A DNA stretch of 64,000 nt, from the NCBI RefSeq assembly GCF_003073135.1, contig NZ_PGDQ01000005.1:1-64000 (forward strand), in the 5' to 3' direction. Source of the DNA: Euzebya rosea. GTDB taxonomy: Bacteria > Actinomycetota > Nitriliruptoria > Euzebyales > Euzebyaceae. Both the position numbers and the translations under genes were made by a program. The notes beneath the pieces are model-generated. The model did not search any database. It saw only the letters and a program-made list of their open reading frames with translations, and was not told the DNA's origin. Shown piece after piece: positions 39,310 through 54,182 of the stretch. Numbering within the stretch: position 1 is the first letter of the stretch; every line of letters starts with the position of its first letter.

Positions 39310-39359
39310 CTGAATGCAGTTCAGCTGTCTGATTGTCGGACATGTCACGGAACGGAAAT

Positions 39360-39374
39360 CGGAACGACGTTCCG
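39360..39374. promoter_or_regulatory. Inverted repeat upstream of the carboxypeptidase gene
   Basis: CGGAACG-A-CGTTCCG has perfect 7-bp arms. It is framed by GTCAC (39344) and GTGAC (39374), making a nested palindrome in the 143-bp gap. It may be an operator. Confidence 0.35.
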
Positions 39375-39452
39375 GTGACCCACGGCGTGTCGAGCATGAC
39401 CCGCCTCGGTGCACCCGCCGTTGCACCGTCCGATATCGACCGTGGAGAACTG

Positions 39453-42400
39453 ATGTTGCGCGCCCTTGCACGCCTCGTGTTGCTCGCCCTCGTCCTGGCC
39501 CTGCTGCCCGCCACCGCGTCCGTCGCTGCGACGCCGGAGCTGGACTTCGACAGCGACCGCCTGAACGACGAGATCCTGGCGGGAGTCCGTGCTGACGACG
39601 TCAGCGACGATCCGATCCGCAGCGATGACGCCCCGCCGTCATCGGACTTCGCCACACCCATCGCTGCTGAATCGAGCTTCGCCCAGACCAGCTGCCCGCT
39701 GAGCTTCTACCCGCCCGACCCCGACGACTCGTCGTTCTTCATCGGGGTCACGCCGTATCAGGACGTTGCCCCGCGCCTGTGTGCCGCGGCGACCTCGCCC
39801 CGCATCGACGTGCGCGTGGCCGGAGCGTCCGTCGAGGGTCGCGAGATCCCGGTGGTGGACCTCACGGCGCCGTGGTCGGCCGAGGACGCGGCCGCCAACG
39901 AGGCGCTGGAGACGCTGCTCGTCGAGGACCCGGAAGCCGCCCGGGAGCTGTTCGAGAACGGCGGGTACGACGACTACCGGCCCCACATCACGATCAACAG
40001 CAACATCCACGGCAACGAGTACGAGGGCCTGGACAGCACGCTCGACTTCATCGAGTACGTCGCCGCCGCGGACGGGAGCGACCCGATCACGGAGAACCTC
40101 GACAACCTCACCGCCGAGGAGATCGCGGCGCTGCCGACCGTCGACGAGGTGCTCAGCAGCTACGTCATCACCATCGTGCCGACGTCCAACCCCGACGGTC
40201 GCGTGATGGGACAGCGAGCCAACAGCAACGGCTTCGACCTCAACCGTGACTCCGTCACCGGCAGCCAGCCCGAGACCCACATCGTCCGGGATGTCATCAC
40301 CGGCACCACCCCGCTGCTGTTCATCGACATCCACGGCTACGTCGGCTCCGCCGGGCTGATCGAGCCGTGCACCCCGCCGCACAACTTCGCCTACGAGTAC
40401 GACCTGTACCTGCCCAACGCCTACGACGCGGCCCTCTCGATGGAGTCCGAGGCGTTCCGTCGCACCACGATCCTCGACGGCACCGGTCGGACCGAGACGT
40501 ACCTGCCCTACCGCGATGACGACCAGGGCTGGGACGACTGGCCGCCCATCTTCATCGGCATGTACGCGATCTACCACGGCGGCAGCGGCCACACCGTCGA
40601 GGTTCCCCTGAACCCCCGCAGCGGGTCCCTGACCCCCGAGGAGCGGGCCCGTCGCGTGTCGGTCAACACCGAGTTCGCGCGTGCCTCGATCGACGGCACG
40701 ATCCTCGAGGGGATGTCCAGCCGTGACGACCTGCTGGCCGACCAGATCGAGTGGAACGTCCGCGGCGTGACCGCCGCCGGCCAGCAGAACGAGAACCTGC
40801 TGGACGGGGCGTTCCCGCACTTCGACGCCCTGGACCTGTGGGAGACCGACTATCCCGACGCCTACGTGCTGCCGGTCGGTGCCGGGCAGGAGAGCGACGC
40901 AGCCGCTGCTCGCCTGGTCGACTTCCTGATCAGCCAGGACGTCGTCGTCACCCAGCTGAGCCGTCCGACCAGCATCGGTGGGACCACCTATCCGACCGGC
41001 AGCTGGGTCGTCCCGATGGCCCAGACGAAGCGGTCGATCGCCCAGACCCTGCTCGACATCGGACAGGACATCACCCCGCGCGGCATCAACGCGATGTACG
41101 ACATCTCCGGGTGGAGCCTGTCGGACCTGTGGGGTGCAACCGTGGAGCGCGTCGCCAACGACCCGCTGCTCGACATCGGCGAGCCCGTCAGCGACACCCC
41201 CACCCGCGGCAGGGTCGTCGCCGGTGACGCCGTCGCCTACGCGTTCCAGATCCGTGATGCGTCCGACGTGGGTGTCCTGAACCGGCTGCACGACGAGGGG
41301 GTGACGGTGCAGCGTGCCGCCGATGGTCGCGTCCTCGTCGCGCCGTCAGCCCGTCCGTTGCTGCTTGAGATCGCCCGGACCACCGACATCACGTTCACGC
41401 CGCTGGCGTCCCTGCCCGAGGACCGCACGGTGCTCGAGCCGTTCGTCGTCGGCACCAACGTGTCCGGGCCGGAGCTGTACGTGATGACCGACGTGCTGGG
41501 GCTCGACGTCGTGCCGGTCGGCACGGCCACCGTCAACGGCACCGACCCGGACGTGTCGCTGGACGATGTCGACGTCCTGTACCTCGACGGGGCCCCCCGC
41601 AGCGTCACCGCCGATGGGTACGTGGCCCTCGCCGAGTGGATGGAGGCCGGTGGTGGCGTCGTCGCCTACGGCACCGCCGTCGACACCCTGGCCGCAGCTG
41701 GCCTGGCAACCCCCACCCGCAACACCGTGTCGCGCTCCACCAACGGCACGATCAGCGTGGCGCAGGCAGCGGACTCCGAGGTCATGCCGGGCCGGCCGGC
41801 CCAGGACGTCACCTTCGTCTACGGCCCGTCGTTCTTCAGCGACCTGCCGGCTGACTACAAGGCCGTGCAGACCGTCCTGGAGGGCGCCGCCGGTGGCGTC
41901 ATGCGCGCCGGTCACTGGGCTGCGGTCGACTCCTACCCGCAGGCGGAGACCATCGGCCGGGCCGTCACCGTTGCCGGTGAGCTCGCCGACGGCGAACGCG
42001 TCGTCGTGACCGGTGCCGACACCTTGTTCCGCGACATGCTGAAGGGCCTGGACAAGGACCTCGTCGACTGGCTGATCTGGGCCGACGGTGGCGCGGCGAC
42101 CACCGATGACCTGGGCGACCCGTTCGTGCAGCCGACTGCTCCGACGGACCCCGAACCGACGGACCCGGAGCCCACCGACCCCGAGCCCACCGACCCCGAG
42201 CCCACCGATCCCGGTGCGGGGACCGTCGACCGGATCGCCGGCGAGAGCCGGGTGGGCACCGCCATCGCCCTCTCCGAGGCCAGCTTCCCCGAGGGTGCCG
42301 ACACCGTCGTGGTGGCCACCGCGAACGACTATCCCGACGCGCTGACCGCCGGGCCGCTGGCCGGGTTGTCGGACGGTCCCGTGCTGCTGAGCCCCGGCGA

Positions 42401-43103
42401 CACGGTGCCGACGGAGGTGCTTGCCGAGATCCAGCGGCTGGCCCCGTCGGAGATCATCATCGCCGGTGGCACCGCCGTGATGAGCGAGGCCGCCGAGGCA
42501 CAGCTCGCCGAGCTGGCCACGGTCCTGCGCCTGGCTGGTGACACGAGGTTCGGTACCGCCGCCGCGGTCTCGGCCCACTTCGCCCAGCCGGGTGGGACGG
42601 TGGTCATCGCGACCGGCGAATCGTTCGCCGATGCGCTGGCCGGTGGTGTCCTCGCTGGCCGGCGTGACGCCCCGGTGCTGCTGGTCCAGGGCAACGGTGT
42701 CCCCGACGTCACCGCCGCGGAGATCCAGCGGCTCGCCCCCTCCGACGTGATCGTCATGGGTGGCACCGCTGCCGTGACCGACGCCGTGGTCGCCGAGGTC
42801 GGGGACCTGGCCGGTGTGACGCCGCGCCGGATCGCCGGTGCGGACCGCTACGAGACAGCCGCGTTGACCGCGACCGAGCTGGGCAGCGCCGAGGTGGCGT
42901 TCATCGCCACCGCCGGGACCTTCGCCGACGCGCTGGCCGCCGTGCCGGTCGCGGTGATCCAGGACGGCGTCCTGCTGCTGGTCGACGTCGACCGTGTGCC
43001 CGAGACGGTCAGCACGGTGCTGGCCGACCTGACGCCGCCGCGCATCACCGTCCTCGGTGGCACCAGCGCGGTGTCGGAGGCGGTGGTCGACGCCCTCGGC
43101 TGA
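39453..43103 (+). CDS. Secreted M14 zinc carboxypeptidase with CW_binding_2 wall anchor
   Basis: This is a 1216-residue exported protein. ATG 39453 is preceded by GGAGA and begins a signal peptide (LARLVLLALVLALLPATASVA). The M14 domain (about 90-420) has zinc ligands His186 and Glu189 (NIHGNEYEG) and His294 (FIDIHGYVG), the substrate Arg in FDLNRDSV and the catalytic Glu383 (HTVEVPL). A long beta-rich region follows. A (TDPEP)n linker (42145-42210) then leads to three CW_binding_2 repeats (VDRIAGESRVGTAIAL, LRLAGDTRFGTAAAV, RRIAGADRYETAALT). It probably trims peptides at the cell surface. Confidence 0.92.
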   Translation: MLRALARLVLLALVLALLPATASVAATPELDFDSDRLNDEILAGVRADDVSDDPIRSDDAPPSSDFATPIAAESSFAQTSCPLSFYPPDPDDSSFFIGVTPYQDVAPRLCAAATSPRIDVRVAGASVEGREIPVVDLTAPWSAEDAAANEALETLLVEDPEAARELFENGGYDDYRPHITINSNIHGNEYEGLDSTLDFIEYVAAADGSDPITENLDNLTAEEIAALPTVDEVLSSYVITIVPTSNPDGRVMGQRANSNGFDLNRDSVTGSQPETHIVRDVITGTTPLLFIDIHGYVGSAGLIEPCTPPHNFAYEYDLYLPNAYDAALSMESEAFRRTTILDGTGRTETYLPYRDDDQGWDDWPPIFIGMYAIYHGGSGHTVEVPLNPRSGSLTPEERARRVSVNTEFARASIDGTILEGMSSRDDLLADQIEWNVRGVTAAGQQNENLLDGAFPHFDALDLWETDYPDAYVLPVGAGQESDAAAARLVDFLISQDVVVTQLSRPTSIGGTTYPTGSWVVPMAQTKRSIAQTLLDIGQDITPRGINAMYDISGWSLSDLWGATVERVANDPLLDIGEPVSDTPTRGRVVAGDAVAYAFQIRDASDVGVLNRLHDEGVTVQRAADGRVLVAPSARPLLLEIARTTDITFTPLASLPEDRTVLEPFVVGTNVSGPELYVMTDVLGLDVVPVGTATVNGTDPDVSLDDVDVLYLDGAPRSVTADGYVALAEWMEAGGGVVAYGTAVDTLAAAGLATPTRNTVSRSTNGTISVAQAADSEVMPGRPAQDVTFVYGPSFFSDLPADYKAVQTVLEGAAGGVMRAGHWAAVDSYPQAETIGRAVTVAGELADGERVVVTGADTLFRDMLKGLDKDLVDWLIWADGGAATTDDLGDPFVQPTAPTDPEPTDPEPTDPEPTDPEPTDPGAGTVDRIAGESRVGTAIALSEASFPEGADTVVVATANDYPDALTAGPLAGLSDGPVLLSPGDTVPTEVLAEIQRLAPSEIIIAGGTAVMSEAAEAQLAELATVLRLAGDTRFGTAAAVSAHFAQPGGTVVIATGESFADALAGGVLAGRRDAPVLLVQGNGVPDVTAAEIQRLAPSDVIVMGGTAAVTDAVVAEVGDLAGVTPRRIAGADRYETAALTATELGSAEVAFIATAGTFADALAAVPVAVIQDGVLLLVDVDRVPETVSTVLADLTPPRITVLGGTSAVSEAVVDALG
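42145..42210 (+). repeat. Short tandem repeat coding for a Pro-Thr-Asp-Pro-Glu linker
   Basis: Units of 15 bp encode TDPEP and repeat about four times inside the carboxypeptidase gene. They make a flexible spacer between enzyme and wall-binding domains. Confidence 0.75.
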
Positions 43104-43120
43104 TCCAGGTCCCGCCGACG

Positions 43121-43150
43121 GCGGCCGCCTTCCCCCGGGGAGGCGGCCGC
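43121..43150 (+). terminator. Terminator of the carboxypeptidase gene
   Basis: GCGGCCGCCT and AGGCGGCCGC form a perfect 10-bp stem, extended by CCCC/GGGG. TGGCGTTCTC follows. It lies 17 bp after the stop codon. Confidence 0.65.
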
Positions 43151-43206
43151 TGGCGTTCTCCGGCTCCTGCGCGTGACCGGTGACCGGGGTGGGTCCGGAC
43201 ACAACA

Positions 43207-44024: not shown

Positions 44025-45836
44025 ATGACCTACCCCATCGAGCGCATCCGCAACTTCGCGATCATCGCCCACGTCGACCACGGGAAGTCGACGTTGGCCG
44101 ACCGCATGCTGCAGGTGACCGAGCTGGTCTCCGAGCGCGACATGCGCGCCCAGTACCTCGACAAGATGGACATCGAGCGCGAGCGCGGGATCACCATCAA
44201 GGCGCAGGCCGTCCGGATGCCCTACAAGTCCAAGGACGGCGGGGAGTACCTGCTGAACCTGATCGACACGCCGGGCCACGTCGACTTCTCCTACGAGGTG
44301 TCGCGGGCCATGAACGCGTGCGAGGGGGCGATCCTGCTCGTCGACGCGGCCCAGGGCATGGAGGCGCAGACGATCGCCAACCTCTACCTGGCCATCGATG
44401 CGGGCCTCGAGGTCATCCCGGTCCTCAACAAGATCGACCTGCCGGCCGCTCGTCCCGAGGAGGTGGCCAAGGAGATCTGTGCGCTGCTCGGCGGCGAGCC
44501 CGAGGACATCCTCAAGGTCTCTGCCAAGACCGGCATCGGGGTGCCCGAGGTGCTCGAGCAGGTGGTCGACCGCGTCCCGCCGCCGAGCGGCGACCCCGAC
44601 GCCCCGACCCAGGCGCTGATCTTCGACTCCATCTTCGACGCCTACCGCGGCGTGATCGTCTACGCCCGTGTCGTCCAGGGACGCATGCACCCGGGCGAGA
44701 AGATCCGGATGATGGCCACCGAGTTCGAGGGCGTCATCGACGAGCTCGGCGTGACCTCCCCGGAGGCCATGCCCATCGCGGAGCTCGGTCCCGGTGAGGT
44801 GGGCTACCTCACCGCCGCCATCAAGGGGGTCGGCGAGGCCAAGGTCGGTGACACCATCACCCTGGCCGGCAAGAACGCCGCGCCTGCCCCGCTGCCGGGC
44901 TACCGCGAGCCGACGCCGATGGTGTTCAGCGGCCTGTACCCGGTCGACTCAGGCGACTTCCCCGACCTGCGCGACGCGCTGGACAAGCTGCAGCTCAACG
45001 ACGCCAGCTTCAACTTCGAGCCCGAGACCTCCGTGGCGCTCGGCTTCGGGTTCCGCGCGGGCTTCCTCGGCCTGCTCCACATGGAGATCATCTCCGAGCG
45101 GCTCGACCGCGAGTTCAACATCCCGCTGGTCACCACCGCCCCCAACGTGGCCTACACCGTCACGCTGGTCGACGGCTCGGTCCTGAAGGTCTCCAACCCC
45201 GCCGACCTGCCCGAGCCCAACAAGATCGAGCGGATCGAGGAGCCCACCGTCGATGCGATGATCTACCTGCCCAGCGAGTACGTGGGTGCGGTCATGCAGC
45301 TGTGCGAGAAGCGTCGCGGGACGATGCTCAAGATGGACTACCTGACCGAGGAGCGGGTCGAGCTTCGCTACAACATGCCGCTCGCGGAGATCGTGTTCGA
45401 CTTCTTCGACCGGCTGAAGTCGTCCACTCGCGGCTACGCCTCCCTGGACTACGAACCCGCCGCGATGCAGGTGGCGAACCTGGTCAAGGTCGACGTGCTC
45501 CTCAACGGCGAGCCCGTGGACGCCTTCTCCTCCATCGTGCACCGCGACAAGGCCTACGAGTACGGCAAGGCCATGGTCGGCAAGCTCAAGGAGCTGATCC
45601 CGCGCCAGATGTTCGACGTCCCGATCCAGGCTGCCATCGGCGCGAAGATCATCAGCCGCGAGACCGTGAAGGCACGCCGCAAGGACGTGCTGGCCAAGTG
45701 CTACGGCGGTGACATCTCCCGGAAGCGCAAGCTGCTGGAGAAGCAGAAGGAGGGCAAGAAGAAGATGAAGGCCGTCGGGATGGTCGAGATCCCCCAGGAG
45801 GCCTTCGTCGCCGCCCTCTCCATCGGTGGGGACTAG
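44025..45836 (+). CDS. lepA: Elongation factor 4
   Basis: This 603-residue translational GTPase acts on stalled or misassembled ribosomes. It has G1 AHVDHGKST near the N-terminus, G3 DTPGHVDF and G4 NKIDLPAA, then domains II-V and the LepA-specific C-terminus with [34 protein letters not shown] split over the last 60 residues. The length is standard. It normally leads to hemW; here a wall-binding protein gene has been inserted between them. Confidence 0.98.
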
Positions 45837-45895
45837 TCAGAAGTAATTACCGAAACGACAAACCACCTAAAGATTCCGTACTAGCCCGTCGATGT
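45837..45895. other. A+T-rich promoter-like stretch
   Basis: This is the most A+T-rich stretch of the area (for example AAGTAATTACCGAAACGACA). It probably holds the promoter of the following gene, though no exact -10/-35 pair is convincing. Confidence 0.4.
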
Positions 45896-45961
45896 GCGTT
45901 GCGTACACACAGCGAAGGCGCACGGGCTCGTTCCCGTCGTGCCGAAAGACGGGAGCAACGC
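45896..45961 (+). ncRNA. Candidate structured 5' leader (switch-like) before a wall-binding protein
   Basis: GCGTTGC (45896-45902) pairs perfectly with GCAACGC (45955-45961), closing a domain that ends one base before ATG 45963. Inside, CCCGTC (45933-45938) pairs with GACGGG (45948-45953), which overlaps the Shine-Dalgarno sequence GGGAG. CCCGT can instead pair with ACGGG at 45922-45926. The two pairings exclude each other, as in a translational switch. I do not recognise a known riboswitch class. Confidence 0.45.
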
Positions 45962-45962
45962 G

Positions 45963-48135
45963 ATGTCAGCAGCGAGCACGGGGGCGCACGGACGGAATCC
46001 TGCAGCCCGACGAACGACAGCGATGGCAGTGGCGGTGGCCGTGGTGGCTGCGCTGCTGGCCACGGTTGTGCCGGCCAGCGCCCAGGAGGCGCTCAGCGTC
46101 GTCCCGGCGCGCCGCCGCTGCGGCCGATGCCTTCGGGTTCGAGGCGGACGTGGACCTGCTCGGCAACGACGTCGTCCACATCCAGCCCGAGCCCTTCCTC
46201 AGCGTCACCGCCAGCGACGCGATGATGCCCAACGCCCGTGACTCGGTGCTCGACGCCGGCCCGGTCGGCGACGGCCCTTCCGCCGGCGGGGCGAACGTCG
46301 CGGAGATCACGGTCGAGGCCGACATCTTCGCACCCATGGCCCGCGGCACCGCCGTCACCACCGATGTCGACCTGCTGCAGCCCGCCGTCGGCGACGCCCA
46401 CGTCGTGACCGCCGACGCGGTCGCCGCCGTGTCCACCACGACCTGCACCGAGCAGACGCTGGAGGAGGCTGCTGCTGGCACCGCACTCACCGGTCTGACC
46501 ATCGGTGGCGAGGCCATCCCCGTCGACGTGCCGTTCAACACCGAGATCGAGATCCCCAACCTGGCCCGCGTCACCATCAAGGAGGTCGTGCCGGACAGCG
46601 ACGGCATCGGCTGGACCGTTCGTGGCCTGCACATCCGCACCCTCGACCCCCTGACCGGCGCCGTCGACAGCGAGATCATCGTGTCGGAGGCCCACAGCAG
46701 CGTCGACTGCGGCGACACCCCGCCGCCGTGGCCCCCGATCGACCCCGAGGGCCTCTCGGTGCAGAAGTCGATCGTCGACGCCACCCCCGGCGACGACGGC
46801 ACCGTCGCCGTCGAGCCCGGTGACACCGTCACCTACGCCATCGACGTCACCAACGTCGACGAGGCGGCCTGCACCGTGAACCGGATCGTGGACTTCCTGC
46901 CGCTGCCCCTCACCGCGGACGGCACCGGCGAGGTCCTCACCGACGTCGAGCCCACCCCCCGCGGCGAGAACGGCCTGGTCTACGAGATCGAGCCCGTCGT
47001 CCTCGAACCGGGCGACAGCCTGACCGGCACGATCACGTCCGTGCTACCCGACCCGCTGGCCAGCGGTTCGTACTTCAACGACGCCGTCGCCTACGGCACC
47101 TGCGGCATCGGCCGCTCTGGCCTGTCCGCCGGCTTCACCTGGGACGGCGGCGAGACCGACCCGTGCGACTCGCCGATCACCACCGGCACGTTCTCCAGTA
47201 CCTCCCGGCTGGGCGGCGACGATCGCGTCGACACCGCCCTGCGGGTCTCCGGCATGCTGTCGGTCAACGAGGCCAACGCGGTCGTCATGGCACGCTCGGA
47301 CATGTTCCCCGACGCCCTCGCCGCGTCCGGCCTGGCGGCCGAGCTGTGCGCGCCGCTGCTGCTCAACGCCCCGGGTGAGCTCCACCCCGACAACCTGGCG
47401 GAGATCCAGCGGCTCGACGTCGACGAGGTCTACCTGGCCGGCGGCGAGGCCGCGCTGAGCGCCTCCATCGCCGATGACCTCGAGGCCGAGGGCATCAACG
47501 TCATCCGTGTCGCCGGCGACAGCCGCTACACCACCGCTCGGGCCATCGCCTTCGAGATCGTCCGCATCGGCGGACCCGTGGCCCGCGCCACGCTGGTCCG
47601 CGCCGACATCTTCCCCGACGCCATGTCGGCGGCCAACCTGGCCACCCACGCCCGGTCACCGATCCTCCTGACCGACTCCGACGACCTCAACGACGCCTCC
47701 GCGGCGGCGCTGCCGGCCATCCTCGACGGCGAAGCCGGCAACATGGTCTACATCGGCGGTGGTGAGGTCGCGATCGAGCCGTCGGTCGAGGCCGAGCTGA
47801 ACCGCGCCTACCAGACGCGCCGCCTTGCCGGCCTCAACCGGTTCGAGACCTCGGTGGCCTTCATCGAGGAGGCCGTCGCACTCGGCGCCATCCGCGACAT
47901 CACCTGGGTCGCCAGCGGTCACGACTTCCCCGACGCCCTGACCGGGTCCGTCGGCGCCTACCGGCAGGACGCCGGGCTGATGCTGACCAACCCCGATGAC
48001 CTGGCCAACTCACCGGCCACGAAGACCTACCTGTCCGGCTTCGCCGAGGAGATCACCACCGCGGTGATCGTCGGCGGACCCGCGGCGGTCTCCGAGCAGG
48101 TCGAGGGACAGATCCTGGACGCCATCCGGGAGTGA
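45963..48135 (+). CDS. Secreted CW_binding_2 protein, reading frame broken by one base
   Basis: ATG 45963 starts a signal peptide (about residues 1-40, TAMAVAVAVVAALLATVVP then ASAQ) in one frame. The rest of the protein (from about 46111) is in the +1 frame. One surplus base in the GC run 46106-46117 explains it. The mature part has an N-terminal beta domain like choice-of-anchor modules, a DUF11-like repeat (KSIVDATPGDDGTVAVEPGD), and three CW_binding_2 repeats from about 47200. No catalytic domain is seen, so it is probably a structural surface protein. Either the gene is inactive or the base is a sequence error. Confidence 0.78.
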
Positions 48136-48152
48136 CGGCTGCCGCACCACGA

Positions 48153-48182
48153 CGAACGGGCGCCCGGGTGGGCGCCCGTTCG
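48153..48182 (+). terminator. Terminator of the wall-binding protein gene
   Basis: CGAACGGGCGCCC and GGGCGCCCGTTCG pair perfectly over 13 bp with a GGGT loop, followed by GCGTTTCCC. It lies 17 bp after the stop codon. Confidence 0.75.
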
Positions 48183-48211
48183 GCGTTTCCCGTCCCGGCT
48201 ACCCTTCCGTC

Positions 48212-54140: not shown

Positions 54141-54182
54141 GACGACATCGGCCCCCTCCCGTGGTGGGAGGGGGCCGTCGTC
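54141..54182. terminator. Bidirectional terminator between rsmE and the nuclease gene
   Basis: GGCCCCCTCCC (54150-54160) and GGGAGGGGGCC (54166-54176) form a perfect 11-bp stem. GACGAC and GTCGTC lengthen it outward. It separates convergent genes. Confidence 0.75.

Follow-up and report, generated by a model that had tools for sequence, protein, structure and literature searches.

The leader that precedes a CW_binding_2 gene in the window (the whole stretch of 64,000 nucleotides analysed, from a genome of 5.5 Mb) is ordinary in kind and is probably real as a hairpin. The reading tentatively preferred, with somewhat less than even confidence, is of a lineage-specific leader in which a hairpin close to the Shine–Dalgarno sequence (SD) competes with masking of the SD. 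On the basis of predicted folds, its action as an on/off switch is unproven.

Pairings in the window leader

Three congeners were compared with the genome carrying the window, and one of these, referred to here as G003, contains the orthologous leader. The features of the locus are as follows.

45836: stop codon of lepA, the upstream neighbour of the leader
45847–45873, + strand: promoter-like block TTACCG-N15-TAAAGA, just past the lepA stop; conserved in G003
45883–45889, + strand: segment 0, AGCCCGU; partner of segment 1 (45922–45928) in the window's MFE fold
45896–45902, + strand: closing stem 5′ arm, GCGUUGC; present, not conserved in G003
45917–45943, + strand: hairpin of segments 1 and 2, GGCGCACGGG-CUCGUU-CCCGU(C)GUGCC; 10 bp with one bulged C, kept in G003
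45930–45938, + strand: segment 2 as anti-SD strand, GUUCCCGUC; 9 bp with 45948–45956, 8 bp in G003
45948–45956, + strand: segment 3, SD-containing, GACGGGAGC; GACGGGAG identical in G003
45955–45961, + strand: closing stem 3′ arm, GCAACGC; present, not conserved in G003
45963–48135, + strand: downstream gene, with a signal peptide from ATG 45963 followed by a CW_binding_2 protein read in frame with ORF 45892–48135
48212: hemW, next after the CW_binding_2 gene

The words, coordinates and pairings reported in the first-pass annotation were all found in the sequence. CCCGUC at 45933–45938 (CCCGTC in the DNA) can pair with either ACGGG (45922–45926) or GACGGG (45948–45953); the latter contains SD bases, and its pairing extends to 9 bp (GUUCCCGUC/GACGGGAGC). 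The SD, GGGAG at 45951–45955, is situated 7 nt before ATG 45963. A 7-bp closing stem (45896–45902/45955–45961) had also been proposed, and this is present in the window but absent from the best predicted fold and lost in G003, where a 7-bp stem, AUCUCCC/GGGAGAU, is found in another register. The closing stem was dropped from the reading because it is not conserved in G003. Segment 0 (45883–45889) falls outside the span first annotated and had been missed. With the closing stem removed and segment 0 added, the original observation is partly confirmed.

The best predicted fold of 45880–45968 has an energy of −36.7 kcal/mol and differs from the one first proposed. In it, 45883–45889 pairs with 45922–45928, and the SD strand (45948–45956) is masked by 45930–45938; the closing stem combined with the ACGGG:CCCGU hairpin gives −31.5, i.e. 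5.2 kcal/mol less stable. Fold z-scores for the leader were weak (−1.66 over 89 nt and −0.23 over 144 nt), and the double-pairing layout was reached by 3.7% of SD-preserving shuffles. Elsewhere in the window, 16 of 38 upstream regions showed a layout at least as strong, in a comparison for which start codons were approximate. In a single sequence of a GC-rich genome, such a pairing layout is common and not remarkable; conservation, and not layout, must therefore carry the claim. These values also fit coincidence, whereby C-rich and G-rich words pair freely in a GC-rich leader and the likeness to G003 reflects common descent plus chance, an account that we consider somewhat unlikely in light of the comparison below.

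Conservation between two species

The description of the downstream gene as encoding a surface protein holds: its product contains three CW_binding_2 (Pfam PF04122) domain stretches, and the signal peptide starting at ATG 45963 is conserved in the G003 ortholog. This ortholog, found in one of the three congeners, occupies the same place, with the protein domain 93% identical; the window and G003 also agree closely in lepA and in the mature protein. In the other two congeners hemW directly follows lepA and the CW_binding_2 gene is absent from that place, which points to gain or loss of the gene within the genus and leaves only two comparable leaders. Counting all four genomes, the gene lies between lepA and hemW (window 45837–48211) in 2 of 4 and is absent there in 2 of 4.

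The two leaders share about 63% identity. The hairpin at 45917–45943 corresponds to a 12-bp hairpin in G003. Of nine aligned pairs, 7 are the same, one carries a one-sided change (A-U to G-U) and one a two-sided change (G-C to A-U). The pairs were counted on an alignment trimmed to match the 5′ arms, the default alignment there being off by one base. A tenth pair, C-G in one leader and G-C in the other, reads as a further compensation but lies on a gap, beside a one-base deletion. GACGGGAG is identical in both species, leaving the SD unchanged, and the 3′ arm of the G003 hairpin complements the SD strand over 8 bp with a C-G to U-G change. Pairing of segment 0 with segment 1 has a shorter, 5-bp equivalent in G003 (CUGCC/GGCAG) in homologous register. 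A covariation check in homologous leaders had been suggested and could be made against G003; CCCGTC retains both of its pairings at an unchanged position, the closing stem excepted from this conservation. Since the words differ between species and the complementarity stays, RNA pairing is favoured over a protein-binding DNA word, and DNA operator words were rejected for this reason.

Upstream of the pairings, the TTACCG-N15-TAAAGA region is identical to G003 in 27 of 37 columns, with equal 15-nt spacing. This pattern occurs once in the window genome and once in G003 and is absent from the other two congeners; no sigma-70 consensus was called at the block. Judged by sequence, it is plausibly a promoter, which would place the RNA 5′ end near 45880. 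The block that follows (about 45874–45901) is identical in 10 of 28 columns.

For an estimate of how rare such retention is, the joint hairpin energy of the window and G003 was compared with several nulls. It was reached in 0 of 400 column shuffles and, counting the hairpin itself, by about 1.5% of genomic segments of low identity, which places the hairpin among the strongest of these. Given the hairpin, the SD complementarity of its 3′ arm was matched jointly by 0.2% of pair-permuted hairpins. The chain of three pairings at homologous positions was seen in 0 of 3000 column shuffles, 0 of 494 segments and 1 of 123 candidate starts; among about 2,367 other segments of low identity in 217 kb of genome alignment, a single one had it. 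The leader was the only one with the chain among 41 low-identity sites with an SD plus start. Where the window copy of a segment at ≤70% identity had a chain, it was kept equally strongly in 1 of 138 cases and kept at all in 2 of 138. Depending on the null, the frequency of retention at such divergence thus ranges from about 1 in 140 down to 1 in 2,400. A fair figure from these sequences would be about 1%, which is suggestive but no proof, the three-segment test having been devised after inspecting the sequences and resting on two of them.

The rarity of chain retention at about 63% identity and the strength of the hairpin argue against coincidence. Points on its side are the loss of the closing stem, the presence of some three-pairing chain at 75 of the 518 sites that have an SD plus start and higher identity, and the predicted folds, which are opposite in the two species.

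Predicted switching and the proposed mechanism

When the window leader was folded as a growing transcript, the predicted order was pairing of segments 0 and 1, then the hairpin of segments 1 and 2, then 0:1 pairing together with SD masking; addition of coding sequence is predicted to displace the 0:1 pairing. For G003, the 1:2 hairpin is predicted to form as soon as both arms have been made and to hold at all greater lengths. Masking of the SD by segment 2 has near-zero predicted probability there, and AUCUCCC masks the SD in its place, such that the SD is predicted to be paired in both species. Hairpin and masked SD would then be common to both, with a two-state balance predicted in the window only. 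Of the switch-like leader originally described, what survives is the persistence of both CCCGTC pairings in G003, exceeding that of similarly diverged genomic segments; against it stand the loss of the closing stem, an energy balance that is opposite between the species and the failure to find a second copy before any other CW_binding_2 gene.

In the mechanism that we propose, an mRNA leader of about 45880–45962, its RNA start lying presumably upstream of the hairpin, would carry a stable hairpin directly 5′ of the SD. With the hairpin 3′ arm complementary to the SD, the SD would be either masked or left outside the hairpin, and competition between the hairpin (45917–45926/45933–45943) and the SD-masking pairing (45930–45938/45948–45956) would set translation initiation. 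In the window, the 45883–45889:45922–45928 pairing may help the SD-masking state. Masking would be expected to lower translation, and the leader may be switched by some factor, with nothing pointing to a trigger; basal tuning of translation is favoured over control by a ligand. If real, the leader would be one more case of translation tuned by SD-adjacent pairing, in a little-studied actinobacterial class, and a matter of local regulation for one surface protein as opposed to a new class. A more elaborate version, in which a protein or sRNA triggers a four-segment translational switch private to the two-species lineage and gained with the surface-protein gene between lepA and hemW, 0:1 pairing plus SD masking alternating with the hairpin, is considered improbable.

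Known systems and searches for further copies

The predicted pairing of the SD to an upstream anti-SD strand is shared with SD-sequestering leaders such as RNA thermometers, ribosomal-protein autoregulatory leaders and translational riboswitches; in contrast to these, the leader has no conserved sensor element and is known here from a single locus in two species. The first-pass annotation was correct in recognising no known riboswitch, as the leader matches no Rfam family: leaders of both species gave no match at the gathering score, and at E values up to 10 matches fell only outside the leader or there were none. A metabolite riboswitch of unknown class would account for mutually exclusive pairings adjoining the SD; the diverged block at about 45874–45901, where a conserved unpaired core would be looked for, the lack of an Rfam match and the failure to find a second copy among 66 class-level and 396 phylum-level genomes make it highly improbable. 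A new riboswitch class would call for a conserved aptamer core at several loci or in several species, and here the core has diverged and no further copies were found.

For these searches, a covariance model that combines the hairpin and the SD was run. In the 66 class genomes it recovered only the two orthologs, the weak class-level matches not being leader-like, and in the 396 phylum genomes nothing credible was found, two matches lying inside long open frames. Taken together, DNA and covariance-model searches for leader copies in the window's own genome, the genus, the class and the phylum returned only the two orthologs. A protein-based scan of a contig collection gave no match, and a DNA-pattern scan of the same collection gave 45 matches, none with the layout, where about 40 were expected by chance (estimated by hand). 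Leaders of distant homologs of the CW_binding_2 protein were not comparable. The same element was not found ahead of other CW_binding_2 genes, the next best match of the model having an E value of 0.77. CW_binding_2 domain matches number about 160 per genome (155–163 in G000–G003), a large set of surface proteins, so that, with two leaders only, the element does not serve this family in general.

In the erm scheme, four consecutive segments pair either as 1:2 and 3:4, with the SD masked, or as 2:3, with the SD free. One paper states that leader-peptide stalling is thought to destabilise an inhibitory stem-loop (PMC5118997). The leader resembles erm-type attenuators in its four-segment chain of exclusive pairings, ending at the SD and at homologous positions in both species. 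It differs in that the chain is not thermodynamically balanced in G003, where the masked state is not predicted, and in that the G003 ortholog has no short leader peptide and there is no antibiotic link. Attenuation of this type would require a ribosome on an upstream ORF over 45883–45902 to break 0:1, free 1:2 and open the SD. The segment order fits, and an ATG at 45892 in the window is followed by an open frame; that frame, however, reaches the gene without a stop codon, and in G003 the leader contains no ATG, GTG or TTG, hence no upstream ORF, from the lepA stop to the gene start. We assign this explanation very little probability.

A conserved hairpin without SD switching, serving as a weak lepA terminator, an attenuator or an mRNA-stability element, is also unlikely, if less plainly so. 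In its favour, the G003 hairpin is predicted to prevail at all transcript lengths that include both of its arms, and other strong conserved hairpins in the window come after stop codons. As a short G+C-rich hairpin after a stop codon it resembles intrinsic terminators; however, it lies 81–107 nt past the lepA stop, is immediately followed by the SD and lacks a T-rich tail (CGAAAGACGGG). No intrinsic terminator was called at 45700–46100, the hairpin tail (CGAAAGAC) having no U tract.

Strong hairpins with little or no T tail were also observed right after stop codons at 48155–48187, 43120–43151 and 54149–54178; these are probably the terminators of this genome, which a simple terminator scan does not call. 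A second CW_binding_2 gene in the window (39333–43103) is joined to a zinc carboxypeptidase domain. The CW_binding_2 gene downstream of the leader is out of frame in the window assembly, where the frames of the signal peptide and the mature chain differ; the break amounts to one base near 46110 (window 45963–46130) and may be either an assembly error or a real break, the G003 ortholog being intact at 725 aa.
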